Positions 4,417 through 36,577 of a stretch of DNA of 36,577 nucleotides are shown here, one piece after another. Below the pieces are notes generated by a model. It was not told the origin of the DNA. It did not search any database and saw nothing but the letters and a program-made list of their open reading frames with translations. Every line of letters begins with the position of its first letter. Within the stretch, counting starts at the first letter, position 1. A program made the position numbers and the translations under genes. This stretch comes from a virus: positions 1 through 36,577 of the IMG/VR virus record IMGVR_UViG_3300042553_000608; one strand, 5' to 3'.

Positions 4417-4997
4417 GTATTCTTTATCCGGATTCGCTACCGTTGGCTGTGTGCGTTGATGGTGTGGATTATCCCATCCGACCGGAGTTTTATATCGTGT
4501 TAGAAACCATTGCTATTATGAAAAACGATGAGTTACCGGTAAAAATAAGGCTGGAGCAGATGTTCGATTTATTTTATAAGGATACCATTCCTCAGAACAT
4601 CGATTCTGCTTTGGATGCTTTACTGCAATTTGTGAACGCTGGGAGCTGGAGCAATGGGTACCAAAGCAAAAACAAAAGCGATAATTTGTTGGATTGGGAA
4701 AAGGACGCACCGTTCATTTGGGCATCTATGAAACAGACATATCCAAATTGGGATTTTACTCACGCTCATTGGTTTGAATTTAAAGCTTGTTTTGACAGCT
4801 TGCCGGATAACTGCAAAATAAACGATGTCATTCGGATTCGCAATACAAAGATTACGTCATCTATGGGCAAAGAACAGAGGGAGGCAATGCAGGAATTAAA
4901 GCAGATGTATGCCTTGCCAAAAAAGAAAAATGTTAAATCAAAGAGTCCACGTGAGCTGGAGGCAGAATTGAAAAAACGAGCAGAGCAGGGGGTGTAA
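4413..4997 (+). CDS. Tail assembly chaperone, Gp15 family
   Basis: 194 residues with the pattern of the Bacteriophage Gp15 family: N-terminal DYPIRPEFYIVL segment, helical core with a LDALLQFVNAGS segment, then a DWEKDAPFIWASMKQTYP stretch and a conserved HWFEFKACFDSLPD segment, ending in a lysine-rich helix with a PRELEAELKKRA tail. The family lies between tail tube and tape-measure genes in Gram-positive siphophages and is thought to act in tail assembly. Start is GTG 4413. Confidence 0.85.
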   Translation: MSILYPDSLPLAVCVDGVDYPIRPEFYIVLETIAIMKNDELPVKIRLEQMFDLFYKDTIPQNIDSALDALLQFVNAGSWSNGYQSKNKSDNLLDWEKDAPFIWASMKQTYPNWDFTHAHWFEFKACFDSLPDNCKINDVIRIRNTKITSSMGKEQREAMQELKQMYALPKKKNVKSKSPRELEAELKKRAEQGV

Positions 4998-15313: not shown

Positions 15314-15340
15314 TTTAGTGTAGCGAATGAACGAAATGAA
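15314..15340 (-). repeat. Iteron-like array, inverted copy (three 9-bp units)
   Basis: Read on the minus strand the units are TTCATTTCG, then TTCATTCGC, then TACACTAAA, directly adjacent. The same three-unit plan occurs at 15400-15426 and 35654-35680 on the plus strand. The adjacency and fixed 9-bp period suggest binding of a repeated protein unit. Confidence 0.65.
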
Positions 15341-15399
15341 CGCACTTTCCTATTATTTACTACACTTAATATGTTTTTATACAATAATTAGGGTTTGTA

Positions 15400-15426
15400 T
15401 TCATTTCATTCATTACGTTCACTAAA
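15400..15426 (+). repeat. Iteron-like array, direct copy (three 9-bp units)
   Basis: Units TTCATTTCA (15400-15408), TTCATTACG (15409-15417), TTCACTAAA (15418-15426). It ends 36 bases before the -35 box of the early promoter. It matches the array at 35654-35680 in plan and in most bases. Confidence 0.7.
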
Positions 15427-15462: not shown

Positions 15463-15491
15463 TTGACAAGCATATAATTATAGTTTATAAT
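15463..15491 (+). promoter_or_regulatory. Early promoter, sigma-A type
   Basis: TTGACA (15463-15468), a 17-base spacer, TATAAT (15486-15491): a perfect consensus pair. Transcription should begin near 15498 and read the early block from 15532. It also shows that an upstream in-frame ATG at 15490 cannot be the start of the first early gene. Confidence 0.93.
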
Positions 15492-16868: not shown

Positions 16869-17066
16869 ATGCTGGGTACTCATTTAAAGTCGTACAGGAA
16901 GGCTCACAGGCTCACACAGCGACAGTTTTGTAAATTGTCGGGCATTGGTATCAAAACACTAATTGCAACCGAAAAAGGCAACACACCCACTGCAAAGGTA
17001 TTGATTAAAATATCCGTAGCAACCGGATGGACACGAAATAAAATGATGGAGGTATTAGAAAGATGA
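16869..17066 (+). CDS. Small Cro/CI-type helix-turn-helix regulator
   Basis: 65 residues forming one HTH_3/XRE domain: LKSYRKAHRLTQRQFCKLSG carries helices 1-2 and GIGIKTLIATEKG the recognition helix. No dimerisation or peptidase domain is present, so it is Cro-sized. GAGGGG lies before ATG 16869, and the gene ends in an ATGA overlap with the AbrB-like gene, so both regulators are made together. It may act on the early promoter region upstream. Confidence 0.82.
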   Translation: MLGTHLKSYRKAHRLTQRQFCKLSGIGIKTLIATEKGNTPTAKVLIKISVATGWTRNKMMEVLER

Positions 17067-17350
17067 AAGCAACCGGTATTGTAAGGCGAATTGACGATTT
17101 GGGCAGGATATCTATTCCGAAGGAACTGCGAAGGGTTTACAACATTAAAGAAGGCGATCCGGTGGAAATTTACACCGATGTGAATTGCATTATCATTAAG
17201 AAGTACGATCCGGCACTGACTGTGGCTGTCACGCTCCAGCACGTAATCACTGAACTGCAAACAAGCGATATTGATGAAGTTATAAAAGGCGAGCTCATCG
17301 TGGATGTCAAAAAAATTATTGAAAGGATAAATGAAAATGAAAACGACTAA
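17063..17350 (+). CDS. AbrB/SpoVT-type transcription regulator
   Basis: 95 residues. Residues about 1-50 form an AbrB-like swapped-hairpin DNA-binding domain: GIVRRIDDLGRISIPKELRRVYNI then GDPVEIYTD and a strand with IIIKKYD. The C-terminal ~40 residues are helical and probably mediate oligomerisation. In hosts this family includes AbrB, Abh and SpoVT, transition-state and sporulation regulators, so the phage protein could tune host or phage promoters. ATGA overlap with the HTH gene. Confidence 0.9.
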   Translation: MKATGIVRRIDDLGRISIPKELRRVYNIKEGDPVEIYTDVNCIIIKKYDPALTVAVTLQHVITELQTSDIDEVIKGELIVDVKKIIERINENEND

Positions 17351-23847: not shown

Positions 23848-26208
23848 ATGGCGAAACTATTCGTTGAAAATATACCAGCCGAGCTGAAGGAATTAAAGCA
23901 GTGGGTTGGTTGGAAAATGACATTGCTTGCAGACGGTAAAACTTGGGGCAAAATTCCAAAGAATTGCTTCACCGGTGGAAACTCGCAGAGCAATAATGCT
24001 GACACTTGGAGCGATTTTAAAACAGCCATAAAGGCTGTTGATACATATAAATTTGATGGTGTCGGGTTCATGTTCGCTAATGGTTACTTTGGTGTCGACC
24101 TTGACCATGTGCTGGACGATGAAGATGCTGTGAATGGTATCGTGAAGGAATTTGTGCTAACTCTGAACAGCTACGCAGAGGTTTCTCAGAGTGGCACCGG
24201 CTTGCATATCATTTGCAAGGGTAGCTTGCCTGCAGGGCAACGCAGAAACGCAAGCGTTGAAATGTACCAAGACGGACGGTTCTTTATAATGACCGGTGAT
24301 TTGCTTTGGGGCGAGATTCGTGAGGTTCGAGATTGTACCGAGGAAATAAAGGCTTTGCACGAAAAGTATTTAAAAAAGAAATCGTCAGTGGTTTCTGATC
24401 GTGGAGCAGAGCTCGGCATCACCCTGTCTGATAGGGAAATTATCGAAAAAGCCGGAAACAGCAAACAGGGAGCACAGTTTAAAAGATTGTATGCCGGCAA
24501 TATGGACGGATATGACAGCCAATCCTCGGCTGACATCGCTTTGTGCAACATTCTCGCATTTTGGTGTGGGAAGAATGAATACCAAATGGACACCATCTTT
24601 CGCTCGTCCGGCTTAATGCGTGACAAGTGGGATAGAAGGCAGTCCGGCTCTACCTATGGCAAAATAACCATTGCTGATGCAATCGAAAACTGCAGAGAGG
24701 TTTATTCTCGCAGTAATAAATCTACGCACACCGAAACAAAGGCACAACCACGAGAAAACGAACCGAAGGCTCCGGCTCAAAAGGTGAAAGATTATCCGTA
24801 CAACGATACAGGAAACGCACAGCGTTTTGTCGATTATTTTGGGGATAATCTTTTTTATATGCATCAATCGAAAACTTGGCTGATTTGGGACGGTCGGTGC
24901 TGGGTGGAGGATTTGTCCGGCGAAGTTAAAAAGTTAGCGGACGAAACTATAAACCGGATGAAGATACAGGCTTGGGAGGAAGAGGACGACGAAAAAAAGG
25001 AAATGCTTTTAAAATGGGCACACAAGACTTCATCTTCAAAGACTAAGGTGGCAATGCTTACCGAAAGTCAGCACGTTGGTGATATTCCCAAGTTGATGTC
25101 GGATTTTGATTTGCATAAGGATTTCTTTAACTGCAAAAACGGGATCGTAAATTTGAAAAATGGCGAACTGATTCCACACGATAAAGGCTATATGATGACA
25201 AAGATTTCGAACTGTGAATATGACAATGTGTCCGGCAAGCAACCGGAGCGATGGATTAAGTTTCTCGACGATGTCACCGGTGGCGACAAGGAATTGCAGA
25301 GGTATATTCAGAAGGCTGTCGGTTATTCTCTCACCGGATCCATTCGGGAGCAGTGTCTTTTTATGTGCTACGGTTTAGGACAGAACGGTAAAAGCACATT
25401 TTTGGAAACGGTTACCGATATCCTCGGCGGATATGCTCGAAACGCTCAAACTGAAACTATAATGTTGAATGTTAAGGGTGCAAGTGGAGGCTCGTCTGCA
25501 TCGCCGGACATCGCTCGTTTAAAGGGTGCGAGAATGGTCACAGCGAACGAACCGAACCAAGGTGTAAGGATGAACGAAGGGCTTGTGAAACAGTTAACCG
25601 GTGGCGATAAAATCACAGCGAGATTTCTGCACAGCAGGGAGTTTGAGTTTGTGCCGGAGTTTAAACTTTGGATGTCGGCAAACAACAAACCTATTATCAC
25701 CGGAACGGATCAAGGTATATGGCGAAGGATGAGGCTCATTCCGTTTATTGTGCAAATACCGGAAAACAAAAGGGACAAGAGCTTAAAGTCAAAATTAAAC
25801 AAGGAGTTACCTCAAATCCTTAAATGGGCGGTTGACGGTTGTATTATGTGGCTAAGAGAGGGACTGAACGTTCCGGCTTGCGTTGAAAAAGCGACTGCAG
25901 AGTATCGGCAGGAAATGGATTCACTCGGTCAGTTTTGTGATTTGGCTTTGGAGCCGGACAATTCGGCATCCTGCAAGTTTGCGGATATATATGAGGCATA
26001 CGTTTCTTGGGCAGAAGAAAACCACGAATATTTGCTGTCAGCTAATAAATTCGGCAAAGATTTGGTGAAACGATATCCGGACAGGTACCGGCTCGGTGAT
26101 GGCATTTATTATAAACGCATTAAGTTGTCCGAGTATGGGCTGAACCTAATTAAAAAGTCGCAAACGGTCACAGGGTACCAGCAGAAGTTTTCGGGGAGTG
26201 GTGCGTAG
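23848..26208 (+). CDS. D5-type primase-helicase (P4 alpha-like)
   Basis: 786 residues with three parts. Primase-polymerase-like domain 1-170: GVDLDH (metal site, about 82-87), SGTGLHIICKG (115-125), FFIMTGD (145-151). D5 N-terminal region about 310-480. SF3 helicase about 480-660: Walker A GLGQNGKST (509-517), motif B ARMVTANEPN (561-570), motif C KLWMSANNK (606-614), and an IWRRMRLIPF arginine region. The last part (about 691-761) is a winged helix, the origin-recognition place in P4 alpha. It should prime and unwind the phage origin; no phage DNA polymerase is present, so the host enzyme would be used. Confidence 0.95.
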   Translation: MAKLFVENIPAELKELKQWVGWKMTLLADGKTWGKIPKNCFTGGNSQSNNADTWSDFKTAIKAVDTYKFDGVGFMFANGYFGVDLDHVLDDEDAVNGIVKEFVLTLNSYAEVSQSGTGLHIICKGSLPAGQRRNASVEMYQDGRFFIMTGDLLWGEIREVRDCTEEIKALHEKYLKKKSSVVSDRGAELGITLSDREIIEKAGNSKQGAQFKRLYAGNMDGYDSQSSADIALCNILAFWCGKNEYQMDTIFRSSGLMRDKWDRRQSGSTYGKITIADAIENCREVYSRSNKSTHTETKAQPRENEPKAPAQKVKDYPYNDTGNAQRFVDYFGDNLFYMHQSKTWLIWDGRCWVEDLSGEVKKLADETINRMKIQAWEEEDDEKKEMLLKWAHKTSSSKTKVAMLTESQHVGDIPKLMSDFDLHKDFFNCKNGIVNLKNGELIPHDKGYMMTKISNCEYDNVSGKQPERWIKFLDDVTGGDKELQRYIQKAVGYSLTGSIREQCLFMCYGLGQNGKSTFLETVTDILGGYARNAQTETIMLNVKGASGGSSASPDIARLKGARMVTANEPNQGVRMNEGLVKQLTGGDKITARFLHSREFEFVPEFKLWMSANNKPIITGTDQGIWRRMRLIPFIVQIPENKRDKSLKSKLNKELPQILKWAVDGCIMWLREGLNVPACVEKATAEYRQEMDSLGQFCDLALEPDNSASCKFADIYEAYVSWAEENHEYLLSANKFGKDLVKRYPDRYRLGDGIYYKRIKLSEYGLNLIKKSQTVTGYQQKFSGSGA

Positions 26209-29330: not shown

Positions 29331-29347
29331 ACGAGAGGATGTTAAAA

Positions 29348-30580
29348 TTGCAAATCATAAAAGTAAAGGTCGCCGATTTAAAACCTTACGAGAAAAACGC
29401 AAAGAAACACCCCAAGGAGCAAATCGAGCAAATAAAGCAAAGTATTCGGCAGTTTGGCATGAACGATCCGATTGGCATCGATGAGCACAATATGGTTATC
29501 GAGGGACATGGTCGTTTGTTGGCTGTTAAAGAGTTGGGGTTTGAAGAGGTAGAGTGCATCTGCCTCTCTCATCTATCTGATGCCGATAAAAAGGCATATA
29601 TATTGGCTCATAATAAACTCACTATGAACACAGGATTTGACGACACCATCCTGCAGAGTGAGTTTGCTTTTTTACGTGAAAGTGGAATTGATTATTCTGC
29701 CACCGGTTTCTCTATGCAGGAAATAACAAACCTTTTCACTGTAAAAAAATTAAGCGTTGAGGATGACGATTTTGACGTCACAGAGGCTCTTGCTGGGGAG
29801 CCTGTTACCAAGCGAGGCGATATATGGCAGATAGGAAATCACCGGCTGATGTGTGGGGACAGCACGCTCGAACCGGACGTTCACACTCTTATGAATGGCA
29901 ACAAGGCGAACATGGTGTTCACCGATCCACCTTGGAACGTTGACTATGGCTCGAATAAAACTCATCCGTCTTGGAAAAATCGCAGTATTTTAAACGACAA
30001 AATGACCACCGAGAATTTCAATCAGTTTCTCTCACGTTCCTTTGTTGCAATGAAATCGTCTATAGTTGCCGGTGCCATGGTTTACATCGTTATGTCAGCA
30101 CAGGAGTGGGGCAATATTATGGAGGCAATGTCCAGCCTTGGGTTCCATTGGTCGTCCACCATTATTTGGTTTAAGGACAGCTTGGTGCTTTCAAGGAAGG
30201 ATTATCACACGCAATATGAGCCGATATATTTCGGCTGTGAGAGTGAATATGAGCCTGTGTGGTACGGTTGGTCAGACGATGCGAAACGTGTCTGTCCTCT
30301 GCAGGATAGAAAGCAGTCTGATGTTTGGGAGTTTCCTCGTCCGAAAAGGAGCGATGAACATCCAACAATGAAACCGATTCCATTGGTCGAGCGTGCAATC
30401 ATGAACAGCTCCTATGTTGATAACATTGTCCTTGATTTGTTCGGTGGCTCCGGCACAACCATGGTCGCCTGCGAGCAAACTGAACGCATCTGTTATATGA
30501 TGGAGTTAGATCCGAAGTATTGCGATGTTATCGTTAAAAGAATGGAAAAACTGACCGGAATTAAGGCTGTTTTGATATGA
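29348..30580 (+). CDS. ParB-like domain fused to a DNA methyltransferase
   Basis: 410 residues from TTG 29348 (GAGAGG nine bases upstream; ATG 29339 directly abuts that site). Residues 1-95 form a ParB/sulfiredoxin-type domain with IEGHGRLLAV (51-60). Residues about 155-400 are an N4/N6 amino-methyltransferase with motif IV TDPPWN (192-197) before motif I LDLFGGSGTT (about 362-371), the beta-class order. It should methylate phage and host DNA, protecting against restriction. The target site cannot be read from the sequence. No cognate restriction enzyme is seen. Confidence 0.93.
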   Translation: MQIIKVKVADLKPYEKNAKKHPKEQIEQIKQSIRQFGMNDPIGIDEHNMVIEGHGRLLAVKELGFEEVECICLSHLSDADKKAYILAHNKLTMNTGFDDTILQSEFAFLRESGIDYSATGFSMQEITNLFTVKKLSVEDDDFDVTEALAGEPVTKRGDIWQIGNHRLMCGDSTLEPDVHTLMNGNKANMVFTDPPWNVDYGSNKTHPSWKNRSILNDKMTTENFNQFLSRSFVAMKSSIVAGAMVYIVMSAQEWGNIMEAMSSLGFHWSSTIIWFKDSLVLSRKDYHTQYEPIYFGCESEYEPVWYGWSDDAKRVCPLQDRKQSDVWEFPRPKRSDEHPTMKPIPLVERAIMNSSYVDNIVLDLFGGSGTTMVACEQTERICYMMELDPKYCDVIVKRMEKLTGIKAVLI

Positions 30581-30626: not shown

Positions 30627-31010
30627 GTGGCTCGAAAACCTAAATTGACACCGGAACTTATAAAGGAATTTTGCACCTGCATCTCAAATGGGTTGACAAA
30701 TAAAGATGCTTGTATGATTTGCGATATCTCGGAAGTTACGCTTTATGACTGGATTAACAAGGCAGAAAATGGCGGACTATATGCTGAGTTAACTAAGTCA
30801 ATGAAAAAAGCGGAGGCACAATTTAAAGCATTTCACCTGCAGAATGTAACCAAAGCCGGCAAGACGAGCTGGCAGGCATCGGCTTGGATGTTGGAGCGAA
30901 AGTTTAAGCGTGAGTTTGGTCGGTTCGAGAATGCCGGCTCCGGTGAAGGTGTCGAGGACTTAACACCTTTGTACGATGCTTTGAAGGATGATGAGAACGA
31001 TGGAAAGTGA
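30627..31010 (+). CDS. Terminase small subunit
   Basis: 127 residues from GTG 30627 (AGTGGTG at about 30614-30620; two more in-frame GTG codons at 30615 and 30618 lie in that site). N-terminal helix-turn-helix: LTPELIKEFCTCISNGLTNKDACMICDISEVTLYDWI, then central helices and a disordered acidic end. It recognises the packaging start site on phage DNA and recruits the large subunit. Overlaps the large terminase gene by 11 bases. Confidence 0.85.
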   Translation: MARKPKLTPELIKEFCTCISNGLTNKDACMICDISEVTLYDWINKAENGGLYAELTKSMKKAEAQFKAFHLQNVTKAGKTSWQASAWMLERKFKREFGRFENAGSGEGVEDLTPLYDALKDDENDGK

Positions 31011-32358
31011 AAGTTGCAAAGTCGGGACGGTTCGCCGGATTCCTTGGGGTAAATTCAGCAAGAAACACAAGGACTATATCAAACGAGCGTGTGTCTGTAC
31101 CATAAATATTGCCGAGGGTTCGGTGCGTGCTGGGAAGACGATTGATAATTGTGTGGTGGCTCGTGATTTCATTGATTTTAGCAGGGATAAGATACACCTC
31201 GCCAGCGGTTCCACGATTGCCAACGCAAAGCTAAACATCGGGGACTGCAATGGTTTCGGGTTGGAGCATCAATTCGCAGGGCGGTGCCACTGGGGTAAAT
31301 ACAAGGGCAACGAGGCACTGTTCATCAATGCGAAGGTTGGTGAACGCATTCTCATCTTCGCCGGCGGTGCCAAGGCGGACAGTTTTAAGAAAATTCGAGG
31401 CAATTCGTACGGACTATGGATTGCGACCGAAATCAATCTGCACCATGCTGAATTCATAAACGAGGCACAGAGCCGGCAGTTAATGGCACAGGTCATCAAA
31501 ATATTGTGGGACTTTAATCCGGACGCACCGAATGCCAAAATATACAGCGACCATGTTGACGTTTATGCCGGCAAGGTCGAGCGTGGCGAAATGGTAACCA
31601 CATACAACTACCAGCACTTCACTATATTCGATAACGAGAATATGTCCGAGGAGCGAAGGCAGGAAATAATGAACCGGTGGGATCCGAATTCCGTCTATTA
31701 TAAACGCTATATACTGGGGCAGAGGGTTCAAGCGGAAGGGCTTATATTCGGACATTTCGCAAACCATAAGGCTGAGTATGTGTCGAACGTGAAACCTGCA
31801 GAGGACACGATTGCATTCATTTCCATCGGGGTGGACTTTGGTGGGAATAAGTCGAAGAGTGGGTTTGTTGCATCTGCCATACTGAATGGCTGGGCTGGGG
31901 TGGTAGTGGTCGATGATTACAAGGTGTCCGGTGAAAAGGGCGAGATTGACGGTAACGTTATAAACCGAGAATTCATTCAATTCGTGCGAACGGTGCAGGA
32001 GCATTATCCTAAAACCGAGGTGAAGTATGGGTTCGGGGACAGTGCTGAGCAGTATCTGATTGCCGGCATACAAAAGGCTTTAAAGGTCGCTGGGTTACGC
32101 ATCGCTTTTACTGATTCACTCAAGGCTCCGATAAACGACCGGATAAAATGCAAAAGCACGCTAATATATACCAAACGCTGGCGAGTGCTTGACCATTGCA
32201 AGCACGTTATCAAAAGCACCGAGGAGCAGGTATGGGATAATAAAAAGGATGAAGATGTCCGGCTCGATGATTTCACTGCAGACGTGGACGTTGCCGATGC
32301 GGAGGAGTACAGCTGGGAGCGGTGGATTAAACACTTCGAATTGAGAAGGGGAATATAA
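31000..32358 (+). CDS. Terminase large subunit
   Basis: 452 residues from ATG 31000; in-frame ATGs at 30988 and 30991 overlap AAGGA. ATPase domain with Walker A EGSVRAGKT (39-47), a GLWIATEINLHHAEFINEAQSR Walker B region, and an IKILWDFNPDAPNAKIY coupling segment. The nuclease domain begins at IGVDFGGNKSKSGF, with further acidic sites near the end (DDFTADVDVADAEEYSWERW). This is the PBSX-type terminase family of Gram-positive phages. It cuts and pumps DNA into the procapsid. Confidence 0.95.
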   Translation: MESESCKVGTVRRIPWGKFSKKHKDYIKRACVCTINIAEGSVRAGKTIDNCVVARDFIDFSRDKIHLASGSTIANAKLNIGDCNGFGLEHQFAGRCHWGKYKGNEALFINAKVGERILIFAGGAKADSFKKIRGNSYGLWIATEINLHHAEFINEAQSRQLMAQVIKILWDFNPDAPNAKIYSDHVDVYAGKVERGEMVTTYNYQHFTIFDNENMSEERRQEIMNRWDPNSVYYKRYILGQRVQAEGLIFGHFANHKAEYVSNVKPAEDTIAFISIGVDFGGNKSKSGFVASAILNGWAGVVVVDDYKVSGEKGEIDGNVINREFIQFVRTVQEHYPKTEVKYGFGDSAEQYLIAGIQKALKVAGLRIAFTDSLKAPINDRIKCKSTLIYTKRWRVLDHCKHVIKSTEEQVWDNKKDEDVRLDDFTADVDVADAEEYSWERWIKHFELRRGI

Positions 32359-32359
32359 A

Positions 32360-32569
32360 ATGATTTTAGTTTCGATTGCATCCTTGGTTGGGGTGGTTGC
32401 GAACATCTACCATAAAAAGTGGTGTTTTATAATTTGGACGTTTACGAACGCTATATGGTGCGTGTACGATTTCTTTTTGGGAGCCTATGAACAGAGCCTG
32501 CTCTTTTTAGTTTACTTCGCCTTGGCTCTGTGGGGGCTTTACAAATGGGGAAAGGAGCCGAAACGATGA
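32360..32569 (+). CDS. Small membrane protein, PnuC-like half
   Basis: 69 residues starting one base after the terminase stop codon. Two to three hydrophobic segments (2-15, 20-38, 45-62) with a WCFIIWTFTNAIWCVYDFFLG motif. The pattern resembles half of a PnuC/SemiSWEET-like transporter unit; small proteins like this are known from other phages but the role is open. Ends in an ATGA overlap. Confidence 0.55.
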   Translation: MILVSIASLVGVVANIYHKKWCFIIWTFTNAIWCVYDFFLGAYEQSLLFLVYFALALWGLYKWGKEPKR

Positions 32570-34150: not shown

Positions 34151-35320
34151 TTGTTAACTCCAGCGTACTTGTCTGCTCTGCCGGACGAACTTTCCATTCT
34201 GTACAGCGAGGTCGAGGACGATATTATAAACGATATTGCAAAGAGGCTGGGGAAGGTGGATTTCACGAGCATCTCAAGCTCGGCAGAGTGGCAAATAAAA
34301 AAGGCGACTGAACTGAACCTCACAAGGACACAGTTAATTGACCGGCTTGCATCCGTTTCGGGCAGGTCGGTTAAAGAGGTCACTACCTTGTTTGCAAATG
34401 CAAATATAAAAACGATGGACTTTGACCGGCAGGTCATGGGCGACATCAATTTTTACTCGGAAAGTCAACAGCAACTATTGAATGCCGGAATTAAAAAGTG
34501 CAATGGTGAACTGCGGAACCTCACACGAAACACGATTATTGAAACCAGCAACGAGTACAACAAAATAATTGATAGTGCCTACCTGCAGGTTTCCACCGGT
34601 GCGTTCAGTCAACAGCAGGCTGTGTCTATGGCTTTGAAAAAGCTCGCAAAAGACGGACTGCTCACTGCTGTGTACGAAAGTGCCACCGGAAAGAAAACTG
34701 TACAGAACCTTGACGGTGTCGTTCGCAGGGCTGTGGTCACCGGCATAAACCAAACGACCGCACAACTCCAGCTTGACAGGCTCGATGCAGTGGGATGGGA
34801 TTTGGTCGAGGTAACCTCTCACGCTGGGAGCCGACCATCGCACGCACAATGGCAAGGAAAAATATTTAGCCGGAACGGTACCAGTAAGCAGTACGGTGAT
34901 TTTGTGTCAAGCACGAACTACGGGGCTGTGGACGGTTTATGCGGTGCGAACTGCCGGCACAATTTTTATCCGTTTTTAGAGGGTGTCAGTGAGAAGGCTT
35001 TTGATCAGTACGTCACTCCGAGGAAAGCAGGCGAGACTCCACAGCAAGCAAACGACCGAGTTTATGAAGAGAGCCAAACCCAGCGGTACATTGAACGTCA
35101 GATTCGCAGTTGGAAGAGACAAGGCGATGCATTGGCATCTGCTGGACTGGATAACTCGAAAGAGGTCGCCAAGGTTGCAGAGTGGCAGGGTAAAATGAGA
35201 CAGCATATAAAGGCGACCGGTCGGACGAGACGGTACACTCGTGAGGGTGGCAGTCCTGTCCGGTTCAAAGGTACCAAACCATTAAACCAATCAACTAACC
35301 GTCAAGCAACCGTCAAGTAA
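34151..35320 (+). CDS. Phage minor capsid protein (Phage_min_cap2)
   Basis: 389 residues from TTG 34151 directly after the portal stop; GGGGTG lies seven bases upstream. N-terminal helical region, then a conserved RRAVVTGINQTTAQLQLDR segment and a VTSHAGSRPSHAQWQGKIFSRNG motif leading to a LCGANCRHNFYPFL motif, as in Phage_min_cap2 (distant relatives of Mu F/SPP1 gp7). It is thought to enter the head with the portal. The basic C-terminal tail could contact DNA. A terminator follows within five bases. Confidence 0.9.
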   Translation: MLTPAYLSALPDELSILYSEVEDDIINDIAKRLGKVDFTSISSSAEWQIKKATELNLTRTQLIDRLASVSGRSVKEVTTLFANANIKTMDFDRQVMGDINFYSESQQQLLNAGIKKCNGELRNLTRNTIIETSNEYNKIIDSAYLQVSTGAFSQQQAVSMALKKLAKDGLLTAVYESATGKKTVQNLDGVVRRAVVTGINQTTAQLQLDRLDAVGWDLVEVTSHAGSRPSHAQWQGKIFSRNGTSKQYGDFVSSTNYGAVDGLCGANCRHNFYPFLEGVSEKAFDQYVTPRKAGETPQQANDRVYEESQTQRYIERQIRSWKRQGDALASAGLDNSKEVAKVAEWQGKMRQHIKATGRTRRYTREGGSPVRFKGTKPLNQSTNRQATVK

Positions 35321-35324
35321 AACG

Positions 35325-35353
35325 AAACACCGGCTTAAAATGTCGGTGTTTTT
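35325..35353 (+). terminator. Rho-independent terminator after the minor capsid gene
   Basis: AACACCGGC (35326-35334) with GTCGGTGTT (35342-35350), nine pairs, one G-T, loop of seven, then a T run (35349-35353). It ends the transcript from terminase to minor capsid protein. Confidence 0.9.
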
Positions 35354-35379
35354 CTTTTAATAATCTTTTTGCAACCATA

Positions 35380-35424
35380 TTATGTAAACCATTTTTCGAG
35401 TTTTTAAAAAAGTTATGTAAACCA
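35380..35424 (+). repeat. 12-bp direct repeat pair TTATGTAAACCA
   Basis: Copies at 35380-35391 and 35413-35424, 33 bases apart start to start, close to three helical turns, so both present the same DNA face. They follow the terminator. Likely a protein-binding site. Confidence 0.65.
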
Positions 35425-35506
35425 AAACCGACACAATACACATCATTGTTGATAAATTAAAGTAATATTGCACAAATTAAAACCGTTTTAGTGTAGGCAC
35501 ATTTGC

Positions 35507-35708
35507 AAAAACACTATTTTTCTGTAATCCTTGCGACAGTAGAGTTTTATTATATTATTATGTATTGTTTTACATCTTAGTGTATAAAATGAATAAAGGT
35601 TATATATTTTTTATGAAAATACAAAGCAGTATAGAAAAAAATAGGGAAATGCCTTCATTTTGTTCACTGCCTTCACTAAATGCAAAGTTTTATAAAAACA
35701 CTATTTTT
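35507..35708 (+). repeat. Two copies of AAAAACACTATTTTT
   Basis: Copies at 35507-35521 and 35694-35708 are identical over 15 bases and have an A-tract and a T-tract around CACTA, which may bend the DNA. They bracket the central part of the non-coding region. Confidence 0.6.
35654..35680 (+). repeat. Iteron-like array (three 9-bp units)
   Basis: Units TTCATTTTG (35654-35662), TTCACTGCC (35663-35671), TTCACTAAA (35672-35680). The plan and most bases equal the array at 15400-15426. It lies 80 bases upstream of the -35 box at 35761. Confidence 0.7.
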
Positions 35709-35760
35709 GAGTGCTTTTGTTTATGGTGCTATTGTGTGGGTACTTTATGAAAGATTTTTG

Positions 35761-35789
35761 TTGACAGAATTTTTTTTAAATGCTACACT
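35761..35789 (+). promoter_or_regulatory. Promoter of the winged-helix gene
   Basis: TTGACA (35761-35766), 17-base spacer, TACACT (35784-35789). The -10 box is part of a TACACTAAA element that recurs in both non-coding regions, so a protein that binds this element would also block the promoter. Confidence 0.8.
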
Positions 35790-35814
35790 AAAATAAAAAA
35801 CGGAGGAATTTTGT

Positions 35815-36072
35815 ATGTATTTGAAAGCAACGACAGTGAATTTGGACGTGGTGAAGTTATTTGTGAAAGATAGAATTATTCTTGAGCCACCTATTAATGC
35901 AAGCACATCATTGTATGTTTCGGAAATTTACAACGATTACTTATCTTGGAGCGAAGGCAATTTTCAGTTGTCTAAGTGTTTAGTTGCTCGCATTTTAAAA
36001 CGGATTTATCCGAGACGAGTCGGCCGGAATAGCACCGGTATTTTCTACAAAGGGTTCGCTTTAAAAAAATAA
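35815..36072 (+). CDS. Stand-alone winged-helix protein, paralogue of the primase C-terminal domain
   Basis: 85 residues, CGGAGGAATT before ATG 35815. Residues about 12-83 align with primase-helicase residues 692-760: shared features include LF/QF start, ILEPPINAS against LEPDNSAS, EIYNDYLSWSEGN against DIYEAYVSWAEEN, KRIYPRR against KRYPDRY, and a final GIFYKGFAL against GIYYKRIKL. This is the D5-type winged helix that in P4 alpha recognises origin repeats. On its own it could compete with the primase for DNA or form a regulator. It stands alone between two promoters, within the late region. Confidence 0.78.
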   Translation: MYLKATTVNLDVVKLFVKDRIILEPPINASTSLYVSEIYNDYLSWSEGNFQLSKCLVARILKRIYPRRVGRNSTGIFYKGFALKK

Positions 36073-36101
36073 TTGACAAAATATTCAAATAGTGATACGA
36101 T
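36073..36101 (+). promoter_or_regulatory. Promoter for scaffold and coat genes
   Basis: TTGACA (36073-36078) begins right after the previous stop codon; 17-base spacer; TACGAT (36096-36101). It gives a leader of about 150 bases before the scaffold start at 36259 and feeds the coat and tail tube genes up to the terminator at 4010. Confidence 0.82.
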
Positions 36102-36258
36102 TATTTCAACAAAGGCTATCGCAATTCGCCGGCGAAGAGGTGCGTGCATCGGATTAAGCTGGGCGAATGATGGACACGAAGGTGTTCGTTTCCGGCTTTA
36201 GCGTTTCAAGGGAGGAGCTAACCTCGTAAAAATAAGCGTAATTTGAAAGGAGCTATTT
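36102..36258 (+). ncRNA. Structured leader RNA upstream of the scaffold gene, pseudoknot-capable
   Basis: Pairings visible: outer AAAGGCTA (36111-36118) with TAGCGTTT (36199-36206), one mismatch; ATTCGCC (36124-36130) with GGCGAAT (36162-36168); AAGCTGG (36156-36162) with CCGGCTT (36192-36198), one G-T pair; hairpin GGACAC/GTGTTC (36172-36187, loop GAAG). The second and third interlock as a pseudoknot. ATTCGCC also has rival partners (a TTCGCCGGCGAA palindrome at 36125-36136 and CGGATT at 36150-36155), so two folds are possible. I could not match it to a known riboswitch or ribozyme with confidence. Confidence 0.5.
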
Positions 36259-36577
36259 ATGAAAAGAGAGCAATTAAAGGAAATCGGTATATCGGACGAG
36301 TTGATTGACAAGGTTATGGATTTAAACGGAAAAGATATCGAACCGCTGAAATCCAAAACCGAAAGCCTGCAGGGGGAACTCACAAAGGCGAACACTGCAC
36401 TGGCTGATGTCAACGCAAAATTAAAGGCTTTTGATGGTGTGGATGTCGAGGGAATGAAGAAAACCATAGCTGATATGGACACAAAGTATAATTCTGATAT
36501 CACTCAGTTAAAACTGAATTATGCTATTTCCGAGGCAATCAAAGAATTGAAACCACACAAGGTCGAGGCTGTTATGC
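36259..36577 (+). CDS. Phage scaffold protein, GP20 family (5' part; continues at base 1)
   Basis: From ATG 36259, preceded by AAAGGAG (36246-36252). The unique part (36259-36450) encodes 64 residues and the gene continues into bases 1-381, giving 190 residues in total. The N-terminus is a basic helix (MKREQLKEIG) followed by heptad-like Leu spacing (LKSKTESLQGELTKANTALADVNAKL), a coiled coil typical of GP20 scaffolds. It shares a transcript with the coat gene. Confidence 0.87.
   Translation, partial: MKREQLKEIGISDELIDKVMDLNGKDIEPLKSKTESLQGELTKANTALADVNAKLKAFDGVDVEGMKKTIADMDTKYNSDITQLKLNYAISEAIKELKPHKVEAVM
36451..36577. repeat. Terminal redundancy, identical to 1-127
   Basis: Second copy of the end overlap described at base 1. 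It should be removed when the circle is closed. Confidence 0.93.

Follow-up and report, generated by a model that had tools for sequence, protein, structure and literature searches.

The window, as the whole 36,577-nucleotide stretch of viral DNA analysed here is called, encodes an 85-residue protein that is a complete, intact and stand-alone copy of the C-terminal winged helix of D5/P4-type (Pox_D5-like) primase-helicases. Its gene is a maintained, full-length paralogue that is not decaying, and it lies beside an intergenic region that, judged by its repeats and composition, is probably a replication origin. The usual view of P4 alpha and the D5 helicases is of self-contained enzymes in which one protein provides origin recognition, unwinding and priming. 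The explanation that best suits the sequence patterns, held here with middling confidence, is that the 85-residue protein would be the stand-alone, split-off origin-recognition (initiator) protein of such a replicon, regulating its own synthesis and setting the use of the origin. The arrangement is a variant of the P4/D5 replicon and not a new kind, and a second, unnamed case occurs in Efquatrovirus.

A free copy of the primase-helicase winged helix

The coordinates of the features discussed are collected in Table 1. In a BLASTP comparison, residues 21-85 of the free protein and residues 699-762 of the window's own D5 primase-helicase share 24 of 67 positions (36%; E = 2e-7 for that comparison), and a six-frame search of the whole record returned this enzyme as the only match besides the protein itself. 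Against a profile of the winged helices of related phages, from which the window's own D5 was excluded, the open reading frame (ORF) obtains 25.8 bits, compared with a maximum of 9.3 among 20,000 shuffled versions of it. The alignment to the C-terminal winged helix on which the original prediction was built is confirmed by these comparisons. The residue motifs that it listed are correct overall, apart from small gaps (LEP-PINAS against LEP-DNSAS).

Table 1. Features of the window, with positions counted from its first base
Feature	Position	Strand	Description
27-bp element copy, region before early genes	15314..15340	+	repeat comparison
Short iteron-like site	15361..15369	-	one mismatch to TTTAGTGTA
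27-bp element copy, inverted relative to 15314-15340	15400..15426	-	repeat comparison
Early promoter-like site, downstream of the 15.3-kb elements	15463..15491	+	TTGACA-17-TATAAT, read from sequence
D5/P4-type primase-helicase	23848..26208	+	phrog_1829, E 1.4e-247; NrS-1-like HBD, D5_N, DUF5906, Pox_D5
C-terminal winged helix of primase-helicase, paralogous domain	25879..26142	+	BLASTP, profile, predicted fold
Probable replication origin	35321..35814		494-bp intergenic region, 27% GC; includes the genome's lowest-GC 300-bp stretch
Terminator-like hairpin and T-run after minor capsid gene	35324..35352	+	divides cassette from late transcription
Iteron-like site 1	35487..35499	+	TTTAGTGTAGGCA
Origin element	35526..35544	+	AATCCTTGCGACAGTAGAG; window's best match to matrix from ten relatives' origins (18.0; next 12.1)
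Iteron-like site 2	35576..35593	+	CTTAGTGTATAAAATGAA
Iteron-like site 3, full 27-bp element	35654..35680	-	three 9-bp-phased units; minus strand TTTAGTGAAGGCAGTGAACAAAATGAA
Promoter-like site of free gene	35761..35789	+	TTGACA-N17-TACACT, TG before second hexamer, 10/12 matches
Iteron-like site 4	35783..35792	-	minus strand TTTAGTGTAG; includes -10 hexamer of free gene's promoter
Free winged-helix gene	35815..36072	+	ATG start, 85 aa, 14 K+R vs 6 D+E

That the two domains share one fold is borne out by structure prediction. AlphaFold2, with locus-derived relatives as input, models the 85-residue protein as a winged helix (pLDDT 84.3, pTM 0.72), and the C-terminus of the window D5 is predicted to have the same fold and topology (pLDDT 82.2). 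The top PDB matches of both models are RFX DNA-binding domains and the C-terminal domain of the African swine fever virus PrimPol (AsfvPrimPol). For the model of the free protein these are 8ZJR (Z 9.4), AsfvPrimPol (Z 8.9) and 1DP7 (Z 8.1), and the P4 origin-binding domain 1KA8 is also among its matches (Z 6.8, 72 aligned residues, 21% identity). The RFX domains (1DP7 and 8ZJR) are the closest solved folds, but they belong to eukaryotic transcription factors and share no context with the window. RFX also gives a weak profile match to the free protein (E = 0.015), and a Pfam search of the protein found no match up to E 0.1. Because the best fold Z-scores are only moderately above those of unrelated winged helices, the claim of kinship is carried by the sequence profile.

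As a free domain copy that is not carried on the primase-helicase polypeptide, the protein is not itself a helicase. It is more basic than the D5 domains, which contain 10-14 K+R and 11-15 D+E, and the KFG usual in the recognition helix is absent from it; the set of sites that it reads may as such differ from that of D5.

The gene has the signals expected for expression, with a GGAGG ribosome-binding site 8 bases 5' of the ATG and, as had been proposed, a promoter-like site of its own. When neutral decay from the D5 domain to about 36% identity was simulated, the frame stayed open in 1.1% of runs and none of the open ones reached the real profile score; that score was reached by 4 of 2000 simulated sequences, 0 of which were stop-free. 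It is accordingly very improbable that the ORF is a relic, that is, a non-functional fragment from recombination with another D5 gene. The existence of D5 tail remnants in Oscillospirales genomes would fit such a relic, as would the failure to find an orthologue of the free gene, but those remnants retain upstream helicase sequence or break off, whereas the window ORF is just the domain, with its own promoter and ribosome-binding site and with a frame that is open and profile-like at an identity where this is rare under neutral decay.

Among viral contigs, genome contigs, phages and plasmids no orthologue of the 85-residue protein was found, the single phage match (E 0.5) being a D5, and for this reason conservation or selection in the gene's own lineage is not measurable. 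In a tree of winged helices the free copy forms a very long branch, and the tree neither establishes nor rules out descent from the D5 of the window (p-AU 0.44). Similarly, no free winged helix was present in the corresponding slot of 80 prophage head-module loci. Short D5-like frames in 295 Oscillospirales genomes were considered as free copies and set aside, as those inspected were D5 remnants or contig ends. Three D5 primase tails that are cut off in Oscillospirales genomes are apparently prophage remnants.

The candidate origin and its repeats

The 494-bp region is located between the minor capsid gene, which ends at 35320, and the free winged-helix gene. Its commonest non-trivial 9-mer, TTTAGTGTA, is found in direct orientation at 35487 and 35576 and inverted at 35672 and 35784, so that AT-rich DNA is flanked by two direct iterons at one end and two inverted ones at the other. 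Ten related phages without a free copy, from Listeria, Enterococcus, Lactobacillus and Staphylococcus, show a similar layout, mostly with direct iterons on one flank of an AT-rich stretch and inverted iterons on its other flank. In all ten of them the iterons lie directly downstream of the D5 gene, in contrast to the window and Enterococcus phage AUEF3, where they adjoin the free winged-helix gene. The 3' end of the window D5 gene overlaps the next gene, so that no origin lies behind it. Lactobacillus phage A2, in which the region downstream of D5 is annotated as rep_origin, resembles the window in its helicase family (42% identity), its iterons and its origin element, and differs in that its origin is directly downstream of the primase gene and no free domain copy was found in it.

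The region also contains the window's top match, at 35526, to the origin element shared with these relatives (approximately CCTTGTGGNAGTAAGG). The matrix used for this search describes a 19-bp element (about AATCCTTGTGGGAGTAAGG) derived from the origin regions of the ten related phages, and the window was not used in building it. In leave-one-out scans the top match fell inside the phage's own origin in 8 of 10 cases. Mononucleotide shuffles of the window gave a mean of 15.0 (sd 2.2) and a maximum of 25.4, a range that includes the window's 18.0. The matrix score is therefore weak alone and draws its weight from location, because 35526-35544 falls in the 1.4% of the genome already marked by iterons. 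Taken together, the iterons, the 27-bp element and the matrix match uphold the earlier suggestion of an origin-like region next to the free gene.

The 27-bp element occurs in three copies (an inverted pair at 15314 and 15400, and one at 35654) that are pairwise identical at 22 of 27 positions, a value reached by 0 of 200 whole-window shuffles, and the claim that the same DNA element is present at 15.3 kb and 35.6 kb holds. Before the early genes, 9-mers of the TTTAGTGTA family are found at 15314, 15361 and 15418, and 7 of the 17 near-matches to the 9-mer in the whole window fall in the two intergenic regions (15.3 kb and 35.3-35.8 kb). The shared 9-mer is weaker evidence than the 27-bp element and only modestly unusual, in a post hoc comparison in which 5 of 300 shuffles reached it. 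A blastn comparison of the 15.3-kb region with phages gave weak short matches only.

The window element is made up of TTCA[CT] units at 9-bp spacing. The alpha iterons annotated at ori and crr in the phage P4 record (TGTTCACC) have in common with it a TTCAC core and a spacing of roughly 9 bp, and the origin-binding domain of alpha is, like the window protein, an RFX-like winged helix; unlike in the window, it is present in P4 only as part of alpha. An exact scan of viral contigs with the 27-bp pattern returned one hairpin of a Bacteroidetes-like phage, which was set aside as unrelated, and no D5 gene was detected there. This hairpin (positions 4540-4640 of its contig) consists of 9-bp-phased TTCAC repeats before an endolysin-like gene, and it warns that 9-bp TTCAC-type repeats occur elsewhere too.

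The positions of the repeats are also relevant to a reading in which the free protein would be a transcription regulator of the early or late switch, with its own promoter and the 15.3-kb early promoter region as main targets and the iteron-like sites as operators. The elements do lie upstream of a consensus-like early promoter and overlap the -10 hexamer of the free gene, and in relatives the slot between the minor capsid and scaffold genes often has accessory genes, some of which read as Bro/Rha-type antirepressors. However, the inverted-flank layout, the lowest GC of the genome and the origin element at 35.3-35.8 kb better suit an origin than an operator, and a purely regulatory role appears improbable.

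The Efquatrovirus parallel and the proposed role of the free protein

A fold search of viral models (BFVD) with the 85-residue model returned several small uncharacterised proteins, including a 141-residue protein of Enterococcus phage AUEF3 that is taken to be CO47_0147, a coding sequence of the same length in the AUEF3 genome. The C-terminus of this free protein matches that of AUEF3's own primase (BLASTP, 48% over 42 residues, E = 2e-7), the wing RVNGKP included. Its D5 kinship rests on this comparison and on the fold search, because its match to the D5 profile is weak (4.7 bits). Other BFVD fold matches of 95-162 residues, which may be further free copies, are from Enterococcus phage Aramis, Pithovirus LCPAC202 and the entries A0A2I7QLM7, A0A2I7RLD6 and A0A411BK18.

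Searches recovered the CO47_0147 gene from 28 records, of which only one is not from an Enterococcus phage, and the primase segment from 106. As in the window, these Efquatrovirus genes encode a small protein whose C-terminal winged helix is paralogous to the C-terminus of the phage's own primase, and they border an intergenic region that has 7-9 iterons as well as the same origin element; in AUEF3 this region is 522 bp long and has seven iterons of the TGTTCTTCA type together with the genome's best origin-element match. Unlike in the window, the protein has 141 residues with an extra N-terminal part, and its gene is the first of the early operon rather than part of the late region. The Efquatrovirus gene is annotated as encoding a hypothetical or tail tape measure protein.

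The iterons of these phages vary. They are TGTTCTTCA in AUEF3, Haystack and Vaquero, a mixture of GTTCTC[TG]GT and TGTTCTTCA in phiSHEF5 and phiNASRA1, AGTGTTACA in vB_EfS_L1 (whose D5 was outside the comparison), and GTCTACACT in AL2, where the slot gene differs. Only 1-3 residues separate the D5 winged helices in the copies that were compared. A nearly constant D5 domain beside variable iterons implies that D5 alone is not the reader, and the natural choice would be a neighbour that itself varies, such as the free protein. A strict rule from free-protein type to iteron type fails, as Vaquero and phiNASRA1 differ in their iterons despite similar free domains, and Nonaheksakonda, in which the upstream region contains another gene too, also breaks the match. 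The pattern pointing to the free protein as iteron reader is, as such, a lead and not proof. Across the region before the early operon (30813-31334 in locus L117, and L118-L126), the iteron sets are strikingly different, with up to 19 copies in vB_EfS_L1, and the primase is nearly constant.

Two findings favour an initiator-type role over a pure brake: the relocation of the iterons from beside the D5 gene to beside the free gene, and the pattern seen in Efquatrovirus. In the proposed mechanism, the free protein would bind the iterons and, once the origin is occupied, would shut its own promoter, whose -10 box lies in iteron 4. The free protein and the D5 helicase would then jointly decide origin firing, either through mixed winged-helix dimers or through placement of the helicase at the iterons. 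The free protein would be the subunit that gives the initiator its specificity, and at high dose it would also limit initiation. Mixed dimers of the free and D5 winged helices are plausible because DNA binding by the origin-binding domain of P4 alpha is reported (Yeo et al. 2002) to be controlled by homo- and heterodimerisation of the winged helix.

The original prediction had suggested a competitive brake on origin firing or a switch from replication to late expression, from which the results lean away towards an initiator. As a replication brake, the free domain would lower origin firing by sitting on the iterons of D5 or by forming mixed winged-helix dimers, and its origin-embedded promoter would provide negative feedback. 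That the two loci share their elements, which also occur in the promoter of the free gene, would suit this, as would the dimerisation said to control alpha. Nevertheless, a brake alone seems rather unlikely, since the Efquatrovirus D5 winged helix is nearly constant while the iterons vary, which makes D5 unlike an iteron reader to compete with, and since the window iterons lie away from the D5 gene and beside the free gene. In P4, replication is acted on by a separate small protein, Cnr. Cnr (106 aa), however, is not detected by the winged-helix profile that detects the window protein; the 85-residue protein was not accepted as a Cnr homologue on this ground, and the P4 parallel is one in effect and not in kind.

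Shorter, antagonistic and autoregulating Rep forms, which also speak for a brake, are documented for plasmid pIGRK, where the short form modulates replication and the long and short forms both repress their own promoter (PMC6854812). These are in-frame products of one gene from an unrelated Rep family, unlike the window protein, and by analogy with them initiator and brake roles can coexist at different doses.

In the searchable literature, outside which most subscription papers fall, no report was found that describes an origin-binding winged helix occurring free in D5-type phages or that assigns a function to the Efquatrovirus paralogue. The earlier statement that no such system had been described therefore stands for function but not for existence, as the unnamed Efquatrovirus paralogue lies beside an iteron region. 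Tentatively, it is possible that in some D5-helicase phages origin specificity has passed from the winged helix of the helicase to a free, fast-changing winged helix whose gene lies at the origin. Reader and iterons could then be swapped together as a cassette with the helicase left unchanged, and the window phage and the Efquatroviruses would be two independent cases.

That two unrelated phage groups encode the recognition domain as a free copy next to the probable origin would mean that recognition can be separated and regulated. This offers a direct test of how D5 helicases reach their origins and of how phages limit or switch replication. It also bears on rapid iteron change by phages, for example in the escape from origin decoys, and it assigns a testable function to a gene whose product, in many Enterococcus phages, is annotated as hypothetical or 'tail tape measure'.

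Genome context

Bases 1-127 of the window are identical to 36451-36577, and although the record is classed as linear, these identical 127-base ends imply that the genome is complete, circular (or terminally redundant) and about 36,450 bp long. The scaffold gene (36259 to the end and on to 381) crosses the join and is followed by a P22-coat-like major capsid gene (405-1523). The interval from the minor capsid gene to the scaffold gene is an accessory slot, both in the window (35321-36258) and in the 80 prophage loci, where it measures 0.1-2 kb and contains varied small genes; in two of these loci the slot genes look like Bro/Rha-type antirepressors.

No RNA family matched the window at its gathering score. 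The GP20-b family scores weakly (15.2 bits against a gathering score of 36.2) at 36183-36240, exactly where it would be expected, 18 bases 5' of the scaffold gene; this is perhaps a divergent leader RNA. Between the terminase and portal genes, a 69-residue ORF (32360-32569) resembles PnuC-type NMN transporters, but solely their C-terminal third. Furthermore, the gene at 29339-30580 has a DNA methylase domain and a weak ParB-like N-terminal match, and in the early region (16869-17350) a small Cro/C1-type HTH gene is followed by a MazE/AbrB-type gene.
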